Source: Branchiostoma floridae (taxonomy: Eukaryota > Chordata > Leptocardii > Amphioxiformes > Branchiostomatidae). Taken from it: a DNA stretch of 64,000 bases. Under the pieces are notes generated by a model. The model made no database searches, was not told where the DNA came from, and worked only from the letters and a program-made list of their open reading frames with translations. How positions within the stretch are numbered: the stretch's first letter is position 1; each line of letters starts with the position of its first letter. The stretch covers positions 3,083,545 to 3,147,544 of the forward strand of contig NC_049996.1 of assembly GCF_000003815.2 (NCBI RefSeq), read 5' to 3'. The translations under genes and the position numbers were made by a program. Below, piece after piece: positions 15,673-50,030 of the stretch.

Positions 15673-18600
15673 AAACACTGAAGTTCATATGACATTAGGC
15701 CACAGCAAGTAAATTTTATGGATGGCATCCACGTTTTCATTGATTTTCGCCTGATTTCAGAGAAAGAAAGAATATTTTGTCTACCACACTAGTGTCACTT
15801 TACTACACTATATATTTCGCTTCTTGAATACAGGAATGAATGATTTGTTGTCTGCGCTGCCATGTGTTGTCACTTCAATTCTTGTTGCAACGTTTATGGT
15901 GTCTATCTCATTATTTTTGCAGTCTGCATTTAGGGTGTTAGATAGCTCTTGTGGTCAGGAAAAAGTGACATAACTTTTGGCCCCTAGCGGTTAGTTTTGG
16001 AATAGCAGGGGCATTACTTCTGAAGGGAATAACTCAAGAAGGGAACAACGGATTTTCATGATTTTTGGTATGTACGTGCCTTAGAAAATGTTGTACAAAT
16101 TAAAAGGCTGGATATGTAAAATAGGAGTTAATTTGCATAATCAATGAGAATAATCTATCATACCAGTTTTTCCAATGTATCTCTTCTCCCGGACATAATA
16201 TGGTCATGACATGTGGGTGGTAGATCGTTTTCAGCGTCAAGTGGGGCAAGTTTCATACGCCTAACATTTGGAACTGCAGGGTCATTTTTGTCAAGACATT
16301 CCGAAGAGGACTGCAGAAAGGAACGAGGGATTGCCATCATTTTAGGCATGCACGAAGCTTAGGCAAGGTGTACATATTGATAAAATATGCAAATTAGGAC
16401 TTAGATTGCACATTAATGAGGGCATTGTAGAATTCCATTGTTTTCCATAACTGGACTTCAATGAATGTAACACATGTGATTTATGATATTGATGAAACAT
16501 AAGCAGATACCAAATATGCAAATGAGGAACCGATTTGCATAATATGTGCAAAATGGCAAAACTGCTTACTGATTAATGATGGTAATTTTATACTTGTGAC
16601 ATTTGTACGTTAGTGAATGGTGAACATCGCCATGCATAAATTATGTAAATGTCATTTGCATAAACTTAACAAAAGATCTCAATATTTTATGGAGGTATGA
16701 GGTCGCCGAACTCTAGTTTACTATGTCTTCCGTCATGTCCTGTATGTAGCGGACTGTTCCCAGCCTTCGTATGGGACAAACGTCAAGCTGATAGGCTGTA
16801 AGTGGCCATACGACAAGGGAGAGACTTGCGAGTTCAAGTGGCGGCACCACTACACGTGGAAGTCTGGTGATACCATCAGGACCTGTAACGGCGGCCCTAC
16901 GTTCGATAAACATTGGTCTGGAGAACCGATGTACTGCAAGAAAATTGTAGACAGTAAGATCCGCCATGCGTATTTATCTGTCTGTCTGTCTGTTTGTGTG
17001 TTTGTCTGTTAACAGCATAACTCATGAAGCCTTGAATGGATCCTGATGATAGGTTGGTAGGGGTCAAGGAAAAGGTCAAGTTTGATAATGGTCCCCCTAG
17101 CGGATTCCTATGGTACTGCAGCAAAATTTTTATTTTTGATAACTCTTGTTCTGGACATGCTGTGGTTGTGATTTTTGAATGGTATATAGCCCTTGGGGCT
17201 GTAAGATTGAGCCCCCTAGTTTTTTTTTAACTGCATGCGCCGATCTAGTTTGAAACTTGTAACCGTTGCGAGAATAACTAAGAACGTGTTGACTCATTGT
17301 AATGATTTTTGGCATATAGATAGCTTACGGAATGGCTTTCATAATGAAATACTAATTATGCAAATCAACACCTAATGTGAATAATCAATGAGGAAAGTTA
17401 AAAAAATATACTACATTCAATGAGAATACTCTCTAACTTGGCACATCTGTAAACTGAGAAAGGGAGAAATGTCAATAGATGTCCCCTTCCCCTTTTAGGT
17501 CCCCTTCTTTTCAACCTGTTTATTAATGACCTACCCAAAGCTATAACCCGCTGTAAAGTAACATTATATGCGGATGATACAGCTATATTCTTTTCAAGTA
17601 ATGACCCCAGATGTATAGAAAGCACATTAAACATGGAACTTAAACAAATTACTTCCTGGTTTAAGTCGAATCGACTTACTCTTAACATCAAGAAGACAAA
17701 GTGGATGCTTATGGGCTCCACTAGGAAAACAAATTCTACTCCTGATTTGGAGATCAAGATTAATGGTGATACCTTGGAAAGGGTTAGCTCTTATAAATAT
17801 CTGGGTGTCATACTTGATTCTAGCTTAAGTTTCACTGATCACTTGGATGAAGTGTGCAGTAAAATGTCACAGCGCCTAGGACTATTAAGACGCCTACGGC
17901 CTTATCTCTGCACTGGTGTAGCAAATTTGTTGTATAAAACCCTTGCTCTACCACTCCTTGAATATTGTAACGTGGTATGGGACAACTGCAGTGCAGCCAA
18001 CAAGCAGCGTCTCCAAATCCTCCAGAACCGGGGCGCACGAATCATCCTCCGACGTGAGCCAAGGTCGAATGTTGGGGAGCTGCATCAGGCACTGGGTTGG
18101 AGTCTGCTGCAGGAGCTAAGAACTCGGCAGATCTACATTATGGTGTACAAATGCCTTCATGGCCTAGCACCCAACTACCTACTCAATACATTTCGTTTCA
18201 ATAACCAAATCCACAGTCATAACACCAGACAAGCACAACTCCTACATAAACCTAACTACACTTCAAGAGCAGGTCAACGCACATTTGCATACAGGGCAGC
18301 TGAAATATATAATACACTTAAACCTGAGACAAAACAAGCAACTACTCTTAAAACCTTTAAACAGTCTCTGATATCATAACGCTGACATCTGACCTCTGAT
18401 CCCAAAGTAGTTAATGTTTACATAGTTAATGAGGAAACATTACTGGCGTTCTCTGCAACGATAAGACTTTCGTACATTGGACTTATGCCTCTTAGATAGA
18501 AAGGATGATCAACCGAGACAAATTATGCAAATCAACATAATGAGATATTGATTATGCAAATCAGCAGCTAGTTTCCATAATTGTTGAGGAAAGTTTAGAA

Positions 18601-22452: not shown

Positions 22453-22552
22453 NNNNNNNNNNNNNNNNNNNNNNNNNNNNNNNNNNNNNNNNNNNNNNNN
22501 NNNNNNNNNNNNNNNNNNNNNNNNNNNNNNNNNNNNNNNNNNNNNNNNNNNN
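22453..22552. other. Assembly gap (100 N)
   Basis: Exactly 100 unknown bases, so the size is probably nominal. It follows a poly-C run (22429-22440) and removes the 5' exons of the Ig receptor gene. Confidence 0.98.
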
Positions 22553-24786
22553 CCGCGCCGGGTAAGCCACTCAGTTATCCATCGGACCTGACGTACATAG
22601 CCATCCAAGGAGACAGCCAACCGGATAGTGGTAGCTACCGATGTACAGTGTCACCCCAATCCTACCCGAAGGAGACGCTGCGTATGTGGATACGAACTTG
22701 ACTGTCATCGGTGAGCACCATACGCCTTATCTACTTTGTTTTCCAGTCATATGCATGCGTTTTGCGATTATTTCGTCTTTATCAACAGTAGAGTAAATTT
22801 TACAATTTTCCCTACTGCAGTTCAACCCGGGACGGCAACTACTACTAGTACTACCCAAAATGGTCTAATGACTACTGACGGAAGAGGTGAATTATGAACA
22901 TATTTGTTGACGAAATATTTTACCGGTATGTCTCGATCGTGGACTTCTATCTGCGCTCAAAATTCCATCGTCTATAACTCGATACAACCGATTAGGCATT
23001 TTTTTTTACATTTTTTCAAACTAGTTTCTTTTCTCAATCCTCGAAAAACAGGTAGTAGTTGTAGAAAATTGATAACATAAAAACTTCCAATGCATTTACT
23101 TTTTTCTAGGACTGACAACAACTACCATCGGCCAAGCTGTAACAAATCACTTACCAGGTACTGAATGATGTAAACATTATGATCGCTTTGAATATGATAT
23201 TGCCATGGATTTCATGTTTCATTTTACATTATTTCCAACTATAGTTTGTTTTCTCTCCCAATCCTCGAAAAAAGGCAGTAGTTGTAGAAAAGTAAAATTG
23301 ATAACGTAAAAATTACCAATGCATTTACTTTTTTCTAGGACTGACAACAACTACTATCGGCCAAGCTGTAACAAATCACTTACCAGGTACTGAATGATGT
23401 AAACATTATGATCGCTTTGAATATGATATTGCCATGGATTTCATGTTTCATTTTACATTATTTCCAACTATAGTTTGTTTTCTCTCCCAATCCTCGAAAA
23501 AAGGCAGTAGTTGTAGAAAAGTAAAATTGATAACATAAAAATTATCAATGCATTTACTTTTTTCTAGGACTGACAACAACTACTATCGGCCAAGCTGTAA
23601 CAAATCACGCACCAGGTACTGAACGATGTAAACATTATGATATTGCCTTTAATAATATTGCCTTGGATTTCATGTTTCATTTTTACATTATTTCCAACTA
23701 TATTTTGTTTTCTCTCCCAATCCTCAAAAAAAAAACGCAGTAGTTGTAGAAAAGTAAAATTGATAACATAAAAACTACCAATGCATTTACTTTTTTCTAG
23801 GACTGACAACAACTACTATCGGCCAAGCTGTAACAAATCACTTACCAGGTACTGTATGATGTACACATAATGATATTTCTTTGAATAGCAACTTGTTCTT
23901 AATTCACAACTAAGACATCATATCAGATGTGATAAAGCAATGTTAACTTAAATGTTATTGTGACTTTGTATGAATTTGTTATACTGTTGGCAATTTGCAA
24001 AAACGGTGAGTACTTTATGCAATATACAAAACACAAAACATATACCAGCATGTAGGCAAAGTCTGGATAATTTTGCCTGAGCTGATAGACCGAACGACCG
24101 TTTCACCGTACCAAGACCAAAATAGGACACTTATGGTTACTATGGCGCGCAAACGTAAAAAAAAATAAATAAAAATAAAAACTTTTAAAAGATGAGGAAT
24201 GTAGTATTTCTATAAATTCTGCTATTTTGTAGTTGTTTGTAGCATTTCTATAAATTTTGCTATTTTGTAGTTGTTATTTTTTTTATAAATTCTGATAGAT
24301 TGCAGTTGCTCGGGAGCTGGAACAGTAGCGGGTGCTGCAGTCGGCTGTCTTGTTGCCGGACTCCTGCTAGGGGTCGCTGCTACACTGCTGATTCAGCGTT
24401 CAAGGAAAGCTCCAACAGGTAATATTATCAAAAGTGCGTCATCACGTTTCTTGTATTTCTAGCTCTGCAAAAAGAAAATTTGCGCTATAAACTATGAACA
24501 TTATCTTTCAAGGCATCTGATTTAATTGGTACATCTTTCTTATTACTGGTTGCAAAGGATCCAATTGTTGATTAGCTGACACTAATTTTTTTACAACTTG
24601 CAAGATGATGCGTACCAGGAAGAGTATGTGGACGTCCGAACACCCAATAGGGCGGCTTCTCAACGCTCCGGAACTGGAAATGTAGACTACGAAGTTCCCA
24701 TGGAACCGCACGTCTCACTGCCGCCTCCTAGCGACCATTACCAGGAACTACAGCCAGCGGTCTACCAGAGTCTGCAAAAAAACTAA
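22553..24786 (+). CDS. Ig-domain type I receptor with repeated-exon stalk and tyrosine tail (5' part missing)
   Basis: Exons: 22553-22710 (end of an Ig V-like domain, DSGSYRCTVS), 22821-22886 (Thr-rich), four 48-nt exons at 23110-23157, 23339-23386, 23568-23615 and 23801-23848, 24299-24418 (transmembrane) and 24605-24786 (tail, stop TAA). All introns are phase 1 with GT-AG. Each mini-exon encodes GLTTTTIGQAVTNHLP or a near copy, giving a probable O-glycosylated stalk. The TM exon has VAGAAVGCLVAGLLLGVA, then a basic QRSRK stop-transfer. The tail has five tyrosines: AYQEEYVDV, VDYEVP, HYQEL and VYQSL. The last two are tandem YxxL motifs four residues apart, closer than a classic ITAM. An immune-type surface receptor is inferred. 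The signal peptide and most of the Ig domain lie in or before the gap. The Ig exon has an apparent 1-nt frameshift near 22676-22682. Confidence 0.72.
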
Positions 24787-25213: not shown

Positions 25214-25219
25214 AATAAA
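25214..25219 (+). terminator. AATAAA polyadenylation signal of the Ig receptor gene
   Basis: It lies 428 nt after the stop at 24786 and is followed by a CATT microsatellite (25228-25252). Use is inferred from position only. Confidence 0.4.
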
Positions 25220-25858: not shown

Positions 25859-28800
25859 ATGGCCAAGAGTATTGTCTTGACTTATATCTTGTGGCTCATA
25901 GGCGGATTTTTCGGGCTACACCATTTTTATTTGAGGAGGGATCGGCAAGCCTTTGTATGGTGGGCAACTTGCGGTGGTATCTTCGGTTTAGGTAAGACAA
26001 CAACATCCACCTGTTTACTTTAACAATAAGTTATTGTGTTCATAGCTGTTGTATCCCTTTTTCGTAAAGACTTTATGCTATACAGGTATGCTAGCTAGTT
26101 CTTTCCGCATATGGATATGGCACGGAATTCTATGTTTTCTATAAATATTTTATGACATAATTGTACACGAGTTGTCTACCTGTCTTCCATATGGGTCATA
26201 ACCATATTAAGTTTTGGCATTAAATCTTTAAGTTCAAAAATGACTGGTAAACAAGGCATTATAGTATTAAGAGTATTTGCTATATATTTACTAGTGCAAA
26301 GTTGTGAAGGTGGCAAGAAGTTTGTACATAATACTACATTGTAGTAATTTTTATTTTGCTGTAAAAATTATTGTTTATCTTATAGCATGGATCAGTACAC
26401 CTCATGAGAATATCTGACGTTAAATTCTTTGCTTTTCATTATTATAGAATTCAGTACAGGTCATAGAATGTGGCTACCATTTGGTAGGGCATTTGTAACA
26501 GGTAACGGGTAGGACATTTGTTGAAGGACCCACAGGTCCTGGGTTTGAATCCCCTGACATGCTATTGACAATGAGCCTTTGGGAAACTTTTTACCAAATT
26601 CCCCAGTAGGTGTAAATAAGTACCTGTAAAAAATTAAGTAGAAGTCCCATGTTTGAAGCCACACCTCAAGCACTTTAAAGATCCCACTACTTTATCGAAA
26701 TGAGTTAGGGGTCCTTTCCGGTATAATTGGATCAAATAAATCTGTCCGGATATGCAGCTTGTACTATTCAGTACAAACCTGGTGTGTCACGCCATGAGGC
26801 GGTTTACCAAGTACACAATACAGACAAACAAAAACAACAATACAAACTGTCTAGTACTGTCAAGTTGCACACTACTGGTCACATCTTAGGTATCACACTA
26901 CTGTTCCACCGAGGGTCTCATATTACAGTTTTACAACACCAGTGTTCCAGGTTGGTTTCGTGACTTATGGAGAATTCCCGATTATGTGAACGGCTACGGA
27001 GACAAAATTCAAGGACTCACACTACAGTTCCACCCAGGGTCTCATATTGCAGTTTTACAACACCTTTACTGCTTTGTGTTCCAGGTTGGTTTCGTGACTT
27101 ATGGAGGATTCCCGATTACGTAGGCTATGCGAACGGCTACGGAGACAAATTCCAAGTGGTGGAAAACAGAAGACGAAACAACCTGAAACCGATCTTCAAT
27201 GTCGTACGGTTTGGAGGTTTGTCCTTCGATCTTTCTACACTACTTACTATAATGTAGATAAACATTTGTACATTTTCACAGTGTGATTTGTGTGTTTTTC
27301 ATAAAACTCGTACAAATTTTATAAAATTGACCTGCAAATGCTTTAATAAGCACCCCTGCAAAAGGTCTGCCATCAGTGATTTAAAAAAAAAAACAATTTT
27401 AGAAAACTGTCCTTGCTAGACATTCTGGTTTATTACATGCTTGAAAAAAGCATGTACTGTTTCTGGTAGGGATCTTTGTGATTCCGGACCGATATCTCTA
27501 GAACCTCTGGATGGATTGCGATTTCCTTTGCTATGGGGATAGAGTGTGTGACCTATTGTGCTATTAAGTAGATTAGAAGTTTGCTGTTGTTTTGTGGTTC
27601 GTTTTTTTTTTAATATTTACACCCCTTTTCCTGATATGGAGTGATCTGGCCTCATTCCCTCTGTCTCAACCTCCTTGGGGACAGCTAGCAGCTGTAACAT
27701 GTGTTTTGAGTTTTCAGTAGCATGGGAGTGTGTGGAAGGGTCGTTTCCAGTGCTATATCTCCAGAACAGAACGTGTGATTGTGATGATATTTACCTCCAT
27801 GAAAAATGGAGGTATAGTTTTTGGTGTGTCTGTGTGTGTGTCTGTTTGTGTTTCCACATATTTGTGGTCAGCATAACTTTAGAACCTGTTGATGGATTGT
27901 AATGATATTTGGTATTTGGGTAGGTGTTTGGAAGACGAAGGTCAAAGTCAATTTTGGATCCCCTGGTGTGTGACCTTGGTACTGCAACAGAACTTGGATT
28001 TTTGTATCTTTTGACATGGATATGCTATGGTCTTGATTTTTGGTGGCACATAGCTTGTGGTGTAAGTGTAACAGTGGTGTTCAAGGACTGCTAAACCGAA
28101 GACGCCTAACGGCTTAAGCCTTTCGGCCGAACGGTTTGCACGTTCGATTTGTGATCCGGCTGCCCGGGTTCGGCGCGGGTTCGAATCCCGGGAGCCGGGG
28201 TGTTGTTTCTTTCTGTTCTTACTCGCCCCTGCCAATTTCTACACTGGTTCCCACGCCGGCCCTGTGATTAACAGGCTAGTATGTGCCACACAGGGATGTC
28301 GATCTCGGAGATTCGAGGACGAATCTTGAAAAGAAAAGGGGGAGTAGTGTAACAGTGGTGTTCAAGGACTGCTAAACCGAAGACGCCTAACGGCTTAAGC
28401 CCTTTGGCCGAACGGTTTGCACGTTCGATTTGTGATCCGGCTGCCCGGGTTCGGCGCGGGTTCGAATCCCGGGAGTCGGGGTGTTGTTTCTTTCTGTTCT
28501 TACTCGCCCCTCGGGTTGTTTCATAAGGAAGAAGTGTTGTATGTTTGGGCCCTCTAGCAGCTTGCTCTAGAACTGCTGGGGCATTCTGGTCAAAATCTTC
28601 CAAGGAGCAAAAAAGAGCAACTGTGACCATCGCTGTCACCTCTGTATGGTGTGAACCATTATATACACATTGAGATACAATGTATGTGCCAGGTGCAGGT
28701 GTAGCAATAGGAAATAAAAATGAAATGGTGAGGACACCAGAAAGGTACATAGTTTTGGATCTCACTGTTTACCATAGGTAGATATATAACTTAAGAACAA

Positions 28801-31800
28801 TGATGGAATAATTTTGCCAAACGTCAAACCATATCAACCCCCACAACACACCATACGTACCATCACAAAACAAAATATTTCAAGCAGGTTTGAGTTTTCA
28901 GACTCTTTTTAGTAACTGGTTACATTGCAAAATACTACTAGACCTACTGTAATCCACTTTGTCTTCTCGGTACCAAACTTTCACGGTCTGAGAAAATTTG
29001 ACTTATTCTCGGAACTTAATGTTCACTGTCGCGGCAAGTGCACATAATACAGGCTGTGAATTATTTGTTATCGGTAATGATAAGTTCACGTTACAGTCGT
29101 CACTGTGAAAACAGTGAACATAACAGTACATTGAAAAAATCAGGAATTACAGTATTATTATTTCAATAATAATTACTTCTGTCAATATCGAAAGTGTGTT
29201 AATATTGCTAGTACTTAAAAGTGGGTTGATATTACTTCAAATTTGGTAAATATTAGTACTTCATGTTACTTAAAAGTCAGTTAGTATTGCTTAATATCAC
29301 GTAACAGTGGGTTGCTTTGGAAGAGTGTTGGAATTTTTATATTTTGCACTGTCTCACTGTAGCCGACATAACCAATAGGAGAGAGACAGGTCAGATGACT
29401 TAGAGATTACTCCTTATATTTCCAGGGTTCTCGTCAGAATTTTTTAGTATAGTGGAGGAGCTGGCAAAAATAACCCGAACCAATTGCAACATGCTGCGCT
29501 TTCATGAAAATGGGTTTATTTTGCAATGACAGAGGGTGTCAAATACTACAAGTATATTATTATTAGTGATCCCTTTGTTGTGAAGTGGCAAAACAACTAT
29601 TATTTTGATCATAACCCATTCACAAGTTTTTGCAGGCAATGCTGACTGGAAAAGTGATGCCATTTGGCACAGAAATCTGTGAATTTTCATTAATTTTAGC
29701 AAAGCTAGCCAAGAAAATAGGAAAGAAACACACTAAATTTTAGAAGTAGTATAGTGGAGCTGGGCAAGGAGTATAGTGGAGGGCCTCCGTTATTCCCTCC
29801 TCTGGGGAGGACACTGATTTCACACACGTAATACTTCTCATTGTAGCACTGATCATCATTCCACTTGTAACCTCTTGACCACTCAGCACATTCCTCGGTA
29901 GAGCTTCCATCATCCGGTTGCCCGGGCAACCAGTTGGACCAACCGGTGAGCTCGGTACCGTCCTCCCACATCCAAGTCCCCTCTTGTTCTTGGTCAGTCA
30001 GTCCAAACCAGACTCTTGAGCCAGGAAACCTGGTCTTCAGCTGATTGACCAGTAAGGTGTTTGTTGCCTCGTCCTTGACCAGAGCCAGGTGACCGCCTGT
30101 GGTTTGACAGGTGGTCTTGGCATCGTTGTACGTCTTTGTGTCGTTAGAGAAGTAGAAGTACCTCTCTTGCACCTGTTGGATTGAAAATTAAAGAATCATC
30201 AATTTTGACTCAACAAAACTATGGTAGCTGAAAATGCACTGCTTAGCAACCTTTGGGCAATAGCCCAGGCTGCTGTAGTGATTGTACAAGGTGTGTGGCC
30301 CAAGGGCTATTAAAATAGAGATGGGTGCTCAGTCTTATTATAGATTGACCTGCTGGGCCCTGTTTGTCTTGAGAGTGTTGACTTCTTTCTGCAAAGTTGT
30401 TTTTATGAACCAAATATTGTAACGCTGATTCACCTTTATCTGTTGGGTAACCTATATCTGTTGCTTTTGAAAACTAAAAACAGGGTTATTGGGGGATATT
30501 ACATCAACGGATGTTGGGTTCAAATTGCAATATTTTCAGTATGTTGCAGTTTAAAACTACCACCTATTCCCTAGATGTACCTAAATACCCTGCTTTGAAT
30601 AACAATGGATAAAGGTTATCCCGTGGATAAAGGTGAACTAGTTTTAAATAGAAACTTTTTAGTATGGTAGTGTAGTGAGGTGAGGTGGTGAGGTGAGTCG
30701 TACATCCTAAATGTCATAGCCTGATTGAAAATCATAAACAATTGTGCAAGCTAATGTTATCATGCCATAACGAAGCAGACTTGCCTGGCTGGCCACTGTC
30801 TGGTTAGTTGGTTCCTGCTTGTCCCCATAGTTGTTGACATGAACGACAGGGTTGCACACACATTTCTCTTCAGAACTCCTACCCAGACACTGCCAAGTTG
30901 GCTGCCCTGAAACCAAGTGCACGGACACCAGGACAGCAATAACTACAATCACACCCATGTCGTAAAAAAATTACTTTGTTCGACAAGGATTACAACCAAG
31001 CTCAATAGCAGTAAGGTCTTAGAAGTAAATGCCCTTAACATTACAAGGAAGTGACACCTGATATTCCGAAATGTTGTTGACACCGACGGTAAAGAATAGA
31101 GGGTGACTCATGTGCACTTGTGCCTAGTCAACCATCCACATGGTCTGTAGCCAAACCTGGCGCAGGCAAACTGACTTGCAGTCAAACATTGAAAACTACA
31201 TTTACATAGTTAAGACCCTCAGTCTACTTTTTATATCATGTACTCGTTACTTACCCAACCTGCAACCACTTTCTTTACAGTCCCCATGGGGCATTCACAT
31301 CCTAACTGAACAACCAAAATTGATTGACAGTGGCACACAAGCAATTTGTTTTACATCCAAGCATTGCCAGCCCAGCCCCCCCCCCCCCTTAATTTCATGT
31401 AAAGCATTCCAAGGATCCTTACATTTAGGTCCTTTAACTTTTAAGAGAACAACATAAACAATAGGTGACCTCATGGCAAAATAAATTTTGTCAAACATAT
31501 GATTAATAAATACGTTCTCTATCAAGACAATCTGATTTTTTATGCCTTTGTATTTTTCAGGTGAGATGGCACTGGGGATGTATTTCGGCTTCCTCGCCAT
31601 GTGTGCCATTCCTGAGGAAGTTTACCAAGAGGGTTCTGCTGCACAAAAAGCCGTTTGCTACGGTATCGTAACCATGGCTACCACCGTCGGCGTCTACGTC
31701 GTGAGCAACATCGGAGAGGAGACCACCGAGCTTGGCGACATTCTCACGTACGCGAGCGTTCCCGCCATTTTTATGTTCACCAAAGCGCCTGAGAATGCGC

Positions 31801-33582
31801 CCACGTGGATTGCAGTCGGCGCTGCTATTGGCTGCATGTACAGAAACAAGTACAAGCCACGGTCGCAACCGAAGTCGGGGCTTTGCCGCCGTCTGACGAC
31901 GCTAACGCTCGCAGGTATGCTCATTTTCGCAGTCTGGGGGTCGTTCCTGTACCACAACGCGTCGGTGACAACGAAAGATGGCGAAACGATCAAGCTACGG
32001 GATTCCATCGACAACTTCTTCACGTCGCCGGCCTGGTTGCAGTTTAAGAAGAATCTGTGGGAATTGTACGACTACGGACAGACCCATGGTTGGGACAAGG
32101 TGTGGCAGCAGTTTGTGGAGTCTTTAGACCCGACAGGAGAAGCGAATGCACTACAGGTAAGCACGAACATGCAAATTACTGCAAAATGTTCATAAATTAA
32201 CATATCATTAACATCTGTGGGAACTGTATGACTTGGGACTGACCCATGGTTGGGACAAGGTGTGGCAGCAGTTTGTGGAGTCTTTAGACCTGACAGGAGA
32301 AGCCAATGCACTCCAGGTAAGCACAAATATGCAGATTTCTGCAAAATATTCATTCATTGAAATAAGACATGCATGTGAATGATAGTTCAATGCAATGAAT
32401 GCAAGTTAAATGGTTGAATGTTGGTTCCTTTCACAAACAGTACCTCAATTTCAATAATTGTCCTTTTTCTGAGTCATCACGTACCACTTTTCTTGGCAAT
32501 TTCAAAGTTCCTCGCAAAACTCAGTCATACAGTAGACACATACTGGGACAATTTCTATTGTGATTCCAATATATGACTGAAGGATACACATGTGAAACCC
32601 AACGGAAAACATAGCTAATATCCATGACCAATTGCTCCACCCACAGAAACATAAGGACCTGTCAGCCTGCTGTCTGCTATGCTCTCCTCCTAGGAGTGAT
32701 TGATTACCATGAAACTCATGAGAAACACACTGAAATCACAGTCTCTAATTGACGATAAGGAAACCTTTCGAATATCCATCCTCTAAGGCACACATAAGGA
32801 ATTCTCTGTAAAAAGGAAAAATACACTCTCTGAAAAAAGGGAAAATACACACAGGAGATATTTCCTCTTCTGCTGGGTGTGTTTCTTCAGTGTTTCCCAG
32901 TTTTGACTATTGAACTGAGCTTTACAAGTTGTTAAGTTCTTTTGCTTCAACTTGTTTCAGGTACTGGGAGTAGACAAGAATGCGAGTCAGGAGGAGATCA
33001 CCAAACGTTACCGTAAGCTAGCTCGGGAATGGCATCCCGACAGACACAAGGAAAACAAGGAGGAGGCACAGGAGAAATTCATGGAGATACAGAAAGCTTA
33101 TGAGGTAACTTTTATTATTAGTTTTACACTAAATCATTTTGAGTGTGTGTACACTGTAGACAAAGGAAAACCACTAGCCTTGGTACCATCCAAATAGTAG
33201 TTAACTCCAACGTTTATTATATACTATATACAGTCACTTCTTGCTCTGACTTTCTCATACACTATATACAGTCGCTTCTATGCTATTCCGTCTTAACATC
33301 TCTTATGTTTGGAATCGTCCCTATTTTGGACAAGGGTGCTGATTGGCCTCAACACATTAGCAAATTAAGGGTTCAAGCACTTGTTCGAACAGGCACTCCA
33401 ACACCCGAAACGCCCTCCATCTGCTTGGTGTTGGAATGATTTGTTTGTTTGAGCCAGGAATAAACATTAACGTTCTTGTTTGTTTGTTTATTGAACAGAC
33501 GCTGTCAACAATCAAGAAGAAGCGAGAGAGGAAGAGTTCTCAAAAACGTTCGAATGCTGATGACTTTGACCACAGGTTCTAA
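25859..33582 (+). CDS. DNAJC22: DnaJ homolog subfamily C member 22 (TM2 plus J domain)
   Basis: Five exons: 25859-25991, 27085-27216, 31561-32156, 32961-33104 and 33499-33582, all GT-AG, phases 1,1,0,0, giving 362 aa (human protein about 340). The N-terminus has a TM2-type signature ([20 protein letters not shown], about 15-34), then [13 protein letters not shown]. The long exon 3 contributes several transmembrane segments (89-287). The J domain is split between exons 3 and 4, with HPD at 312-314. The C-terminus is basic (KKKRERKSS). This order, TM2 and multipass region first and J domain at the C-terminus, is diagnostic of DNAJC22, the orthologue of Drosophila Wurst, which binds Hsc70 and acts in clathrin-mediated endocytosis. 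Two decoy partial exon duplications occur (26940-27005, 32210-32330). Intron 2 holds a lectin gene on the other strand. Confidence 0.93.
26480..26745 (+). mobile_element. tRNA-derived SINE in DNAJC22 intron 1
   Basis: B box 'gggtttgaatcccc' (about 26538-26551). The body has 'aggtgtaaataagtacctg', 'aagcactttaaagatccc' and the end 'ggtcctttccggtataattg', 'gatcaaata'. Same family as 5570-5925 (-) and 59265-59410 (+). Confidence 0.7.
26886..27150 (+). repeat. Tandem duplication with a partial copy of DNAJC22 exon 2
   Basis: Unit 1 (about 26886-27008) and unit 2 (about 27017-27155) share 'gttccac', 'gggtctcatatt', 'cagttttacaacacc' and then the exon start 'ttccaggttggtttcgtgac'. Unit 1 includes an acceptor and the first part of exon 2 but lacks the 'gtaggctatgc' codons and has no matching donor, so it is a decoy. 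Confidence 0.85.
27798..28066. repeat. Hairpin-started dispersed repeat
   Basis: Begins with 'cctccatgaaaaatggaggt' and a GT-rich run, then 'catatttgtggtcagcataa' and 'tgtaatgatatttggtattt'. Related blocks occur at 12208-12385 and in reverse at the end of the 1-985 copy and at 36150-36190. The inserted element 28067-28511 interrupts it; its continuation is seen from about 28512. Confidence 0.6.
28067..28511. mobile_element. Pair of 164-bp direct repeats with tRNA-like boxes (TRIM-like or SINE dimer)
   Basis: Two nearly identical 164-bp copies, 28067-28230 and 28348-28511, are separated by 117 bp. Each starts TGTAACAGTGG, carries an A-box-like 'ggccgaacggtttgcacg' and a B box 'gggttcgaatcccggg', and ends 'cttactcgcccct'. 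The second copy is immediately preceded by a purine tract (gaaaagaaaagggggagtag), as a retroelement LTR would be. A miniature LTR element is one reading; two tandem tRNA-derived SINE monomers is the other. No full tRNA cloverleaf could be folded by eye. Confidence 0.6.
29515..29520 (-). terminator. Possible polyadenylation signal of the lectin gene
   Basis: The minus strand reads AATAAA, 185 nt past the stop at 29705. Assigned by position only. Confidence 0.3.
29705..30958 (-). CDS. C-type lectin-like protein with hydrophobic C-terminus, nested in DNAJC22 intron 2
   Basis: Two exons, 30785-30958 (ATG 30958) and 29705-30172, join in phase 0 to give 213 aa. The intron is GC-AG with the exact consensus CAG|GCAAGT. 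Residues 1-18 form a signal peptide ([17 protein letters not shown]). A short cysteine-containing linker (C24, C33, C35) follows. The C-type lectin domain spans about 62-177, with C80, C153, C167 and C175, and the Ca2+/sugar motifs QPD (143-145) and WND (162-164). QPD predicts galactose-type binding in this family. After the domain, residues 196-213 are hydrophobic ([17 protein letters not shown]) with no basic tail, which suggests a GPI-anchor signal. The gene lies wholly inside DNAJC22 intron 2 on the opposite strand. The domain call is firm; the sugar preference is inferred. Confidence 0.85.
30429..30640. mobile_element. MITE with 'ttcacctttatc' termini, in the lectin intron
   Basis: The left end 'ttcacctttatctgttgggt' is inverted at the right as 'atcccgtggataaaggtgaa'. 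A second copy is at 44554-44787. Non-coding. Confidence 0.75.
32046..32345 (+). repeat. Tandem partial duplication of DNAJC22 exon 3 end
   Basis: 32048-32190 and 32214-32355 share the last ~110 nt of exon 3, its donor (caggtaagcac) and flanking intron ('atgca..tctgcaaaat'). The downstream copy is open in the exon frame and keeps the donor, but I see no acceptor before it, so it is probably a pseudo-exon. Several substitutions separate the copies, including YGQ to LGL. Confidence 0.88.
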
Positions 33583-49658: not shown

Positions 49659-49675
49659 AATAAAAGTAGCCTTTA

Positions 49676-50030
49676 CTCTACTCTACTCTACTCTACTTTG
49701 CGTAACTCTGCTCTACTATACAGTAGTACTCTACCCAACCGTCTACTCTACTTTGCTCTGCTCTGCTCTGCTCTGCTCTGCTCTACTCTACTCTACTCTG
49801 CTCTACTCTACTCTACTCTACTCTACTCTACTCTACTCTACTCTACTCTACTCTACTCTACTCTACTCTACTCTACTCTACTCTACTCTACTCTACTCTA
49901 CCCTACCCTACTCTACTCTACTCTACCCTAATCTAATCTACTCTACTCTACTCTACTCTACTCTACTCTACTCTACTCTACTCTACTCTACTCTACTCTA
50001 CTCTACTCTACTCTACTCTACTCTACTTTT
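49676..50030. repeat. (TACTC)n pentanucleotide microsatellite, about 350 bp
   Basis: A near-perfect ACTCT/TACTC repeat with some TGCTC variants at 49752-49780 and single CCCTA or TAATC variants. It opens all three frames and makes spurious proteins. It starts about 20 nt after the second C1q poly(A) signal. Confidence 0.95.

Follow-up and report, generated by a model that had tools for sequence, protein, structure and literature searches.

We have found in the lancelet Branchiostoma floridae a tandem array of four exon-like segments of 48 nt, located 229, 229 and 233 bp apart and repeated together with their introns, that probably acts as the constitutive stalk spacer of a single-pass Ig-type receptor and would have been amplified by unequal exchange. 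The array lies in a stretch of 64,000 nucleotides of contig NC_049996.1 (hereafter the window, position 1 being its first letter). The initial annotation of this stretch had placed four tandem 48-nt exons at 23110-23848 with the same spacing, and these coordinates proved to be exact. TRF agrees, reporting an array at 23035-23874 with a period of 229, 3.7 copies, 93% matches and a score of 1421, far above chance. The predicted features of the gene and of the array are the following.

22453-22552, no strand: assembly gap of 100 N that abuts the partial Ig exon on its 5' side
22553-22710, + strand: Ig-domain exon of which the 3' part is present (..DSGSYRCTV..), with the donor GTGAGC
22821-22886, + strand: linker exon, 66 nt, phase 1-1, Thr-rich, VQPGTATTTSTTQNGLMTTDGR
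about 23003-23887, + strand: whole span of tandem homology (intron tail, four exons and intron head), from TRF and self-BLAST
23110-23157, + strand: stalk exon copy 1, 48 nt, GLTTTTIGQAVTNHLP
23158-23338, + strand: array intron 1, 181 nt
23339-23386, + strand: stalk exon copy 2, 48 nt
23387-23567, + strand: array intron 2, 181 nt, differing from intron 1 at 2 positions
23568-23615, + strand: stalk exon copy 3, 48 nt, GLTTTTIGQAVTNHAP
23616-23800, + strand: array intron 3, 185 nt, more diverged than array introns 1 and 2
23801-23848, + strand: stalk exon copy 4, 48 nt, equal to copy 2 in sequence
24299-24418, + strand: transmembrane (TM) exon, 120 nt, phase 1-1, DCSCSGAGTVAGAAVGCLVAGLLLGVAATLLIQRSRKAPT
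24605-24786, + strand: cytoplasmic tail exon, up to the stop, with YVDV, YEVP, YQEL and YQSL
25214-25219, + strand: AATAAA, candidate polyadenylation signal

All four stalk exons share TTTACTTTTTTCTAG directly at their 5' side and GTACTG directly at their 3' side, and the acceptor, the donor, the length and the frame are kept in 4/4. Each of them codes in phase 1-1 for the peptide GLTTTTIGQAVTNH(L/A)P. The copies had been described as encoding one and the same 16-residue Thr-rich unit; the phase was correct and three of the four peptides are identical, but copy 3 has an A in place of the L. Because the exon lengths are multiples of three, the frame is intact at any number of units, as had been proposed. 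With 48 nt and flanking introns in phase 1, each unit would thus add 16 Thr-rich residues without disturbing the frame, and the four exons would lengthen the 22-residue linker by 64 residues, probably O-glycosylated. When the array unit was searched against the whole assembly (513,431,437 bases in 431 contigs; all the match counts given here are lower bounds), at least five matches were found, 5/5 inside the array itself and none elsewhere, and the 64-kb window had no Rfam matches at the gathering threshold. On these results and the self-BLAST we reject a dispersed repeat, a transposon or an RNA element.

The four stalk exons are in frame between the partial Ig and linker exons on one side and the TM and tail exons on the other, and the predicted spliced chain from the linker to the stop is an open frame of 186 residues. 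This chain, together with the family matches of the TM and tail exons described below, agrees with the suggested receptor stalk, the units being located between an Ig fragment and a TM segment with a tyrosine tail. The open TM exon, whose hydrophobic segment we recognized by eye, and the open tail exon provide a single TM segment and a cytoplasmic tail, as expected in an Ig-superfamily membrane receptor. A PDB search with the linker-to-tail protein gave three weak matches (best E 0.31) that we have taken as chance. The 47-aa Ig fragment, with its apparently broken frame, matched Ig chains in PDB (neurotrimin with E=0.0001 and polymeric Ig receptor with E=0.004; 2/15 matches had an E of 0.001 or better) and none of the Pfam families. 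The tyrosine motifs of the tail are YxxL/V-like. The ITIM consensus is (S/I/V/L)xYxx(I/V/L), and EEYVDV, VDYEVP, DHYQEL and AVYQSL each miss one of its ends. The ITAM consensus is YxxL/I-x6-8-YxxL/I, and here the arrangement is YQEL-x4-YQSL, with a spacer of 4, so that neither motif is present in its strict form. In the mechanism that we propose, the array would be the spacer that sets the stand-off of the Ig domain from the membrane, and the signalling would be done by the tyrosine tail. The linker and the repeat exon have a 12-base local match whose score was reached by 28/2000 shuffles; as both are Thr-rich, we do not claim homology between them. Just upstream of the acceptor of the TM exon (24200-24275) there is also a 38-bp unit in two copies plus a weaker third.

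The Ig exon lacks its 5' part, the remainder being in or beyond the 100-N gap. Reading the three frames by eye we found that the frame apparently shifts by one base near 22670, before the donor, a feature absent from the initial annotation; we kept the sequence as assembled. With this break next to the gap, the copy in the assembly may have lost its function or may have been put together wrongly. Nothing else speaks as strongly against a functional gene in this assembly, although an error of sequence next to the gap would explain the break equally well.

The TM and tail exons belong to a family in this genome. The tail exon had at least 38 matches at E<=1 and the TM exon at least 20, the own locus being included in both counts. 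We aligned the tails of 8 paralogs with this gene, choosing the rows by motif searches from a larger set of matches. YQSL was found in 8/8 and YQEL in 7/8 (the other having YQEP) with the same spacing as here, and the joiner between both motifs is RP(A/S)(V/I) in the paralogs and QPAV in this gene. Compared with these 8 paralogs the tail gave dN values of 0.26-0.35 and dS values of 0.91 or more (saturated in one), and the TM compared with 5 paralogs gave dN of 0.28-0.38 and dS of 0.79-1.33. Values of dN lower than dS would report the past of the lineage, not the state of this copy today. The paralogs at C2 (4.46 Mb) and C3 (14.42-14.46 Mb) have a similar TM with an AGAAVGC core, and the tail core YQE(L/P)-RPA(V/I)-YQSL appears in the C2 gene and in the three genes of the C3 cluster with aligned tails.

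We have examined the region before the TM in the five closest TM paralogs, by eye and with a script, and each of them has one or more Thr/Pro mini-exon candidates in phase 1-1, with lengths of about 30-57 nt. That of the C2 paralog has 36 nt and was found by eye, having been missed by the filters of the script. Of the four genes in the C3 cluster, one has candidates of 33 and 48 nt, another has four (57, 39, 36 and 30 nt), a third has a single one of 30 nt, and the remaining gene has two, the longer of about 39 nt (or 33) and the other of 33 nt. These candidates differ among themselves, and the script also gave false ones (27 nt in an intron of this very gene, pieces of Ig exons). Within the 1510 nt that precede the TM match, TRF found arrays with a period of at least 40 at 2/20 loci, this gene (229 x 3.7) and another one (42 x 2.4), one of the 20 stretches containing 100 N; the C2 and C3 paralogs had none of such a period there. 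An array of the 229 type was absent from the 1.5 kb upstream of the TM in the other 19 TM loci. Weaker self-similarity over at least 60 nt (about 68-85% identity) was present upstream of the TM in 12/19 of them, among which there may be older duplications. With candidate mini-exons in the paralogs and the array at this one of the 20 TM loci, it looks as if a single mini-exon of a modular stalk had recently been amplified in tandem.

The stalk donor CAG/GTACTG has a U1 pairing of -7.1 kcal/mol, a value that only 2 of the 106 remaining + strand GT sites in this gene region equal or improve. The other donors gave -7.0 (linker), -8.1 (TM) and -8.3 kcal/mol (Ig), the value for the consensus being -11.6 kcal/mol. 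The stalk donors agree with the consensus from -3 to +3 only, so that some skipping of these exons is possible. The four exons could then be cassettes used in varied combinations, with shorter and longer stalk isoforms as a regulated output, an arrangement to which both the partial donor match (-7.1 vs -11.6) and the in-frame character of every combination of 48-nt phase 1-1 exons would lend themselves. However, the splice sites are practically common to all four, so the sequence distinguishes no copy, and we regard regulated choice among them as rather unlikely. From these practically identical sites we infer the normal inclusion of all four exons, that is, a constitutive spacer.

The array had been presented as young or homogenised, and the divergence among its units bears this out. 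In pairwise alignments, units 1 and 2 differ at 3/229 sites (1.3%, 95% interval 0.27-3.8%), units 1 and 3 at 13/227 plus 4 gaps, and units 2 and 3 at 12/227 plus 4 gaps, the last two comparisons corresponding to 5.3-5.7%. As judged from these values, units 1 and 2 are the youngest step in the history of the array, and the whole appears to be young or homogenised, although the divergence of the units does not tell recent duplication from gene conversion. Between units 1 and 2 there are 2/181 differences in the introns and 1/48 in the exons. The claim that introns are as similar as exons stands for these two units, and by a Fisher test the difference was not significant in 5/6 exon pairs; the exception is exons 2 and 4, which are identical while their flanking intron has 10/115 differences (p=0.035, uncorrected for six tests). 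With 1/6 pairs at p<0.05 before correction, the exons are not clearly more conserved than the introns, and we do not claim from this comparison that the repeat exon has been under purifying selection.

The lack of a significant difference in divergence between introns and exons in 5/6 pairs also suits a different picture, in which the array would be a non-coding 229-bp tandem repeat within an intron of a decayed receptor gene and the open frame a leftover of the ancestral exon. Owing to the frame break of the Ig exon and the adjoining gap, decay is the main threat to the stalk spacer, and the self-BLAST found the window rich in short direct duplications. Against it, splice sites, length and frame are intact in 4/4 copies, the linker, TM and tail exons are open, and the dN of TM and tail is well below the dS with the paralogs, even if this reports the past of the lineage. 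On balance we consider decay improbable, and the stalk spacer the preferred explanation.

The intron 3 carries the traces of how the array may have started. In the multiple alignment it differs from intron 1 or 2 at 18/181 aligned positions, with 2 gaps each. It begins with 39 nt that can be aligned to the intron following copy 4 and closes with a tail that can be aligned to the intron preceding copy 1, about 21 nt between these two parts aligning to neither; the introns upstream of copy 1 and downstream of copy 4 are themselves homologous only in part to the array introns. A chimeric intron of this kind is what a tandem duplication should leave at its junction when its two breaks fall within introns. 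We propose that one intron-exon-intron segment would have been duplicated head to tail, with both breakpoints within introns, and that unequal exchange between near-identical units would have raised the copy number, the latest event involving units 1 and 2. The chimeric intron and the graded divergence (1.3% vs 5.3-5.7%) are what a true duplication should leave, and distinct changes are found in distinct copies; all this makes it very improbable that the array is an assembly artefact, either by allelic copies set head to tail or by a miscount next to the gap. Such an artefact would be favored by the 100-N gap, which ends 558 bases before copy 1, by the apparent indel in the Ig exon and by the extreme heterozygosity of lancelets, as described in the part of the source cited here (PMC4284660). 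The exact copy number could be wrong.

The divergence between units 1 and 2 can be compared with that between alleles. In the parts of the sources cited here, the alleles of the diploid Chinese lancelet genome have a SNP rate of 4.39% (PMC4284660), SNPs plus indels reach 6-7% in the amphioxus genome (PMC2632668) and wide presence-absence variation is reported in a lancelet pangenome study, which names resequencing sets of 41 B. floridae and 99 B. belcheri (PMC12373286). The probability of finding 3 or fewer differences in 229 sites is 0.009 at 4.39%, 0.086 at 3% and 0.33 at 2%. Alleles may thus typically be older than the duplication or than the last homogenisation of these units. As the divergence of units 1 and 2 is below the 4.39% allelic rate, copy-number polymorphism is plausible. 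More tentatively, and with the balance somewhat against it, alleles might vary in how many 48-nt exons they carry, and hence in stalk length by steps of 16 residues. An invertebrate chordate would then have, in a receptor with a tyrosine-rich signalling tail, a population-variable stalk 'ruler' convergent with the hinge of IgG3, and the stalks of the family might generally consist of interchangeable phase 1-1 mini-exons.

The hinge of human IGHG3 is rich in Cys and Pro. According to the part of PMC8674132 that we cite, the alleles of this gene have two to five hinge exons, four being the commonest number, in a repeat element of about 200 bp; the hinges have 32, 47, 62 and 77 aa for 2-5 exons, that is, steps of 15 residues, and the alleles with 2 and with 5 exons come from a single individual each. 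The similarities are the short repeated exons for an extended spacer in an Ig-superfamily protein, here a putative one, and the unit of about 200 bp; the lancelet array likewise consists of equal-length in-frame exons repeated together with their introns, and is known from one assembly. IGHG3 differs in being an antibody heavy chain; its copy number is polymorphic in this source, while that of the lancelet array may be so, and we claim no homology. In the BG genes of the chicken (butyrophilin family) there are many 21-nt exons whose number varies by gene and haplotype (cited parts of PMC5938342 and PMC4046983). They encode single-Ig-domain membrane proteins and, like the gene described here, belong to a multigene family and have tiny exons in series, but in those sources the 21-nt heptad exons encode a cytoplasmic coiled coil, whereas here the exons have 48 nt and would encode an extracellular stalk. 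Lancelets have a larger share of 1-1 phase internal exons than the other species examined, and their Ig domains expanded almost wholly via 1-1 phase exons (PMC4284660). That expansion is genome-wide with emphasis on domain exons, whereas we describe one short spacer exon repeated four times in one gene.

A description of the array was not found in the titles and abstract beginnings of the literature on amphioxus Ig-domain/ITIM receptors and on tandem exon duplication. The array fits the known design of spacer-making by exon repetition and nothing in it is categorically new; the frequent short direct duplications in the window make it less surprising. It offers a clean and young case, in a receptor family from outside the vertebrates and with paralogs that can serve as controls, of a spacer probably lengthened through the amplification of an exon. 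Should copy number vary among individuals, one could test directly at this locus whether stalk length is under selection.

Other repeats were observed among the relatives of the tail exon. In one of them (L029:1563-2096, on C7 at about 16.845 Mb) the tail itself is amplified, with a 114-nt unit repeated 4.7 times in one open frame of 219 residues with repeated YQEL/VYQ-type motifs. On C192, a contig of 376 kb, tandem partial copies of a membrane-protein exon, which we take to be polycystin-like, are located upstream of a tail-like exon with a period of about 123-125 nt (L020:11-775). The same contig has two tail matches with identical scores (125434 and 231524) that may represent a haplotype duplication in the assembly.

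Within the window, a second tandem duplication with coding sequence is found at 32053-32364 (offset 160, 88.8% identity over 152 nt). It repeats the end of a coding exon and its donor, apparently in the next gene, and no acceptor was evident to the eye in the second copy. To this apparent next gene would belong a TM2 domain (25859-26020, Pfam PF05154) and a DnaJ-like exon recognized by eye at about 32962-33104. A direct duplication with 98.2% identity over 166 nt joins 28065-28230 and 28346-28511, with a spacing of 281 nt. The window also contains a C-type lectin domain on the - strand (29708-30187, PF00059, E=3.6e-24), a reverse transcriptase fragment on the + strand that is probably a LINE relic (17453-18376, PF00078, E=1.7e-13) and a (TACTC)n run of about 70 units at 49674-50027.
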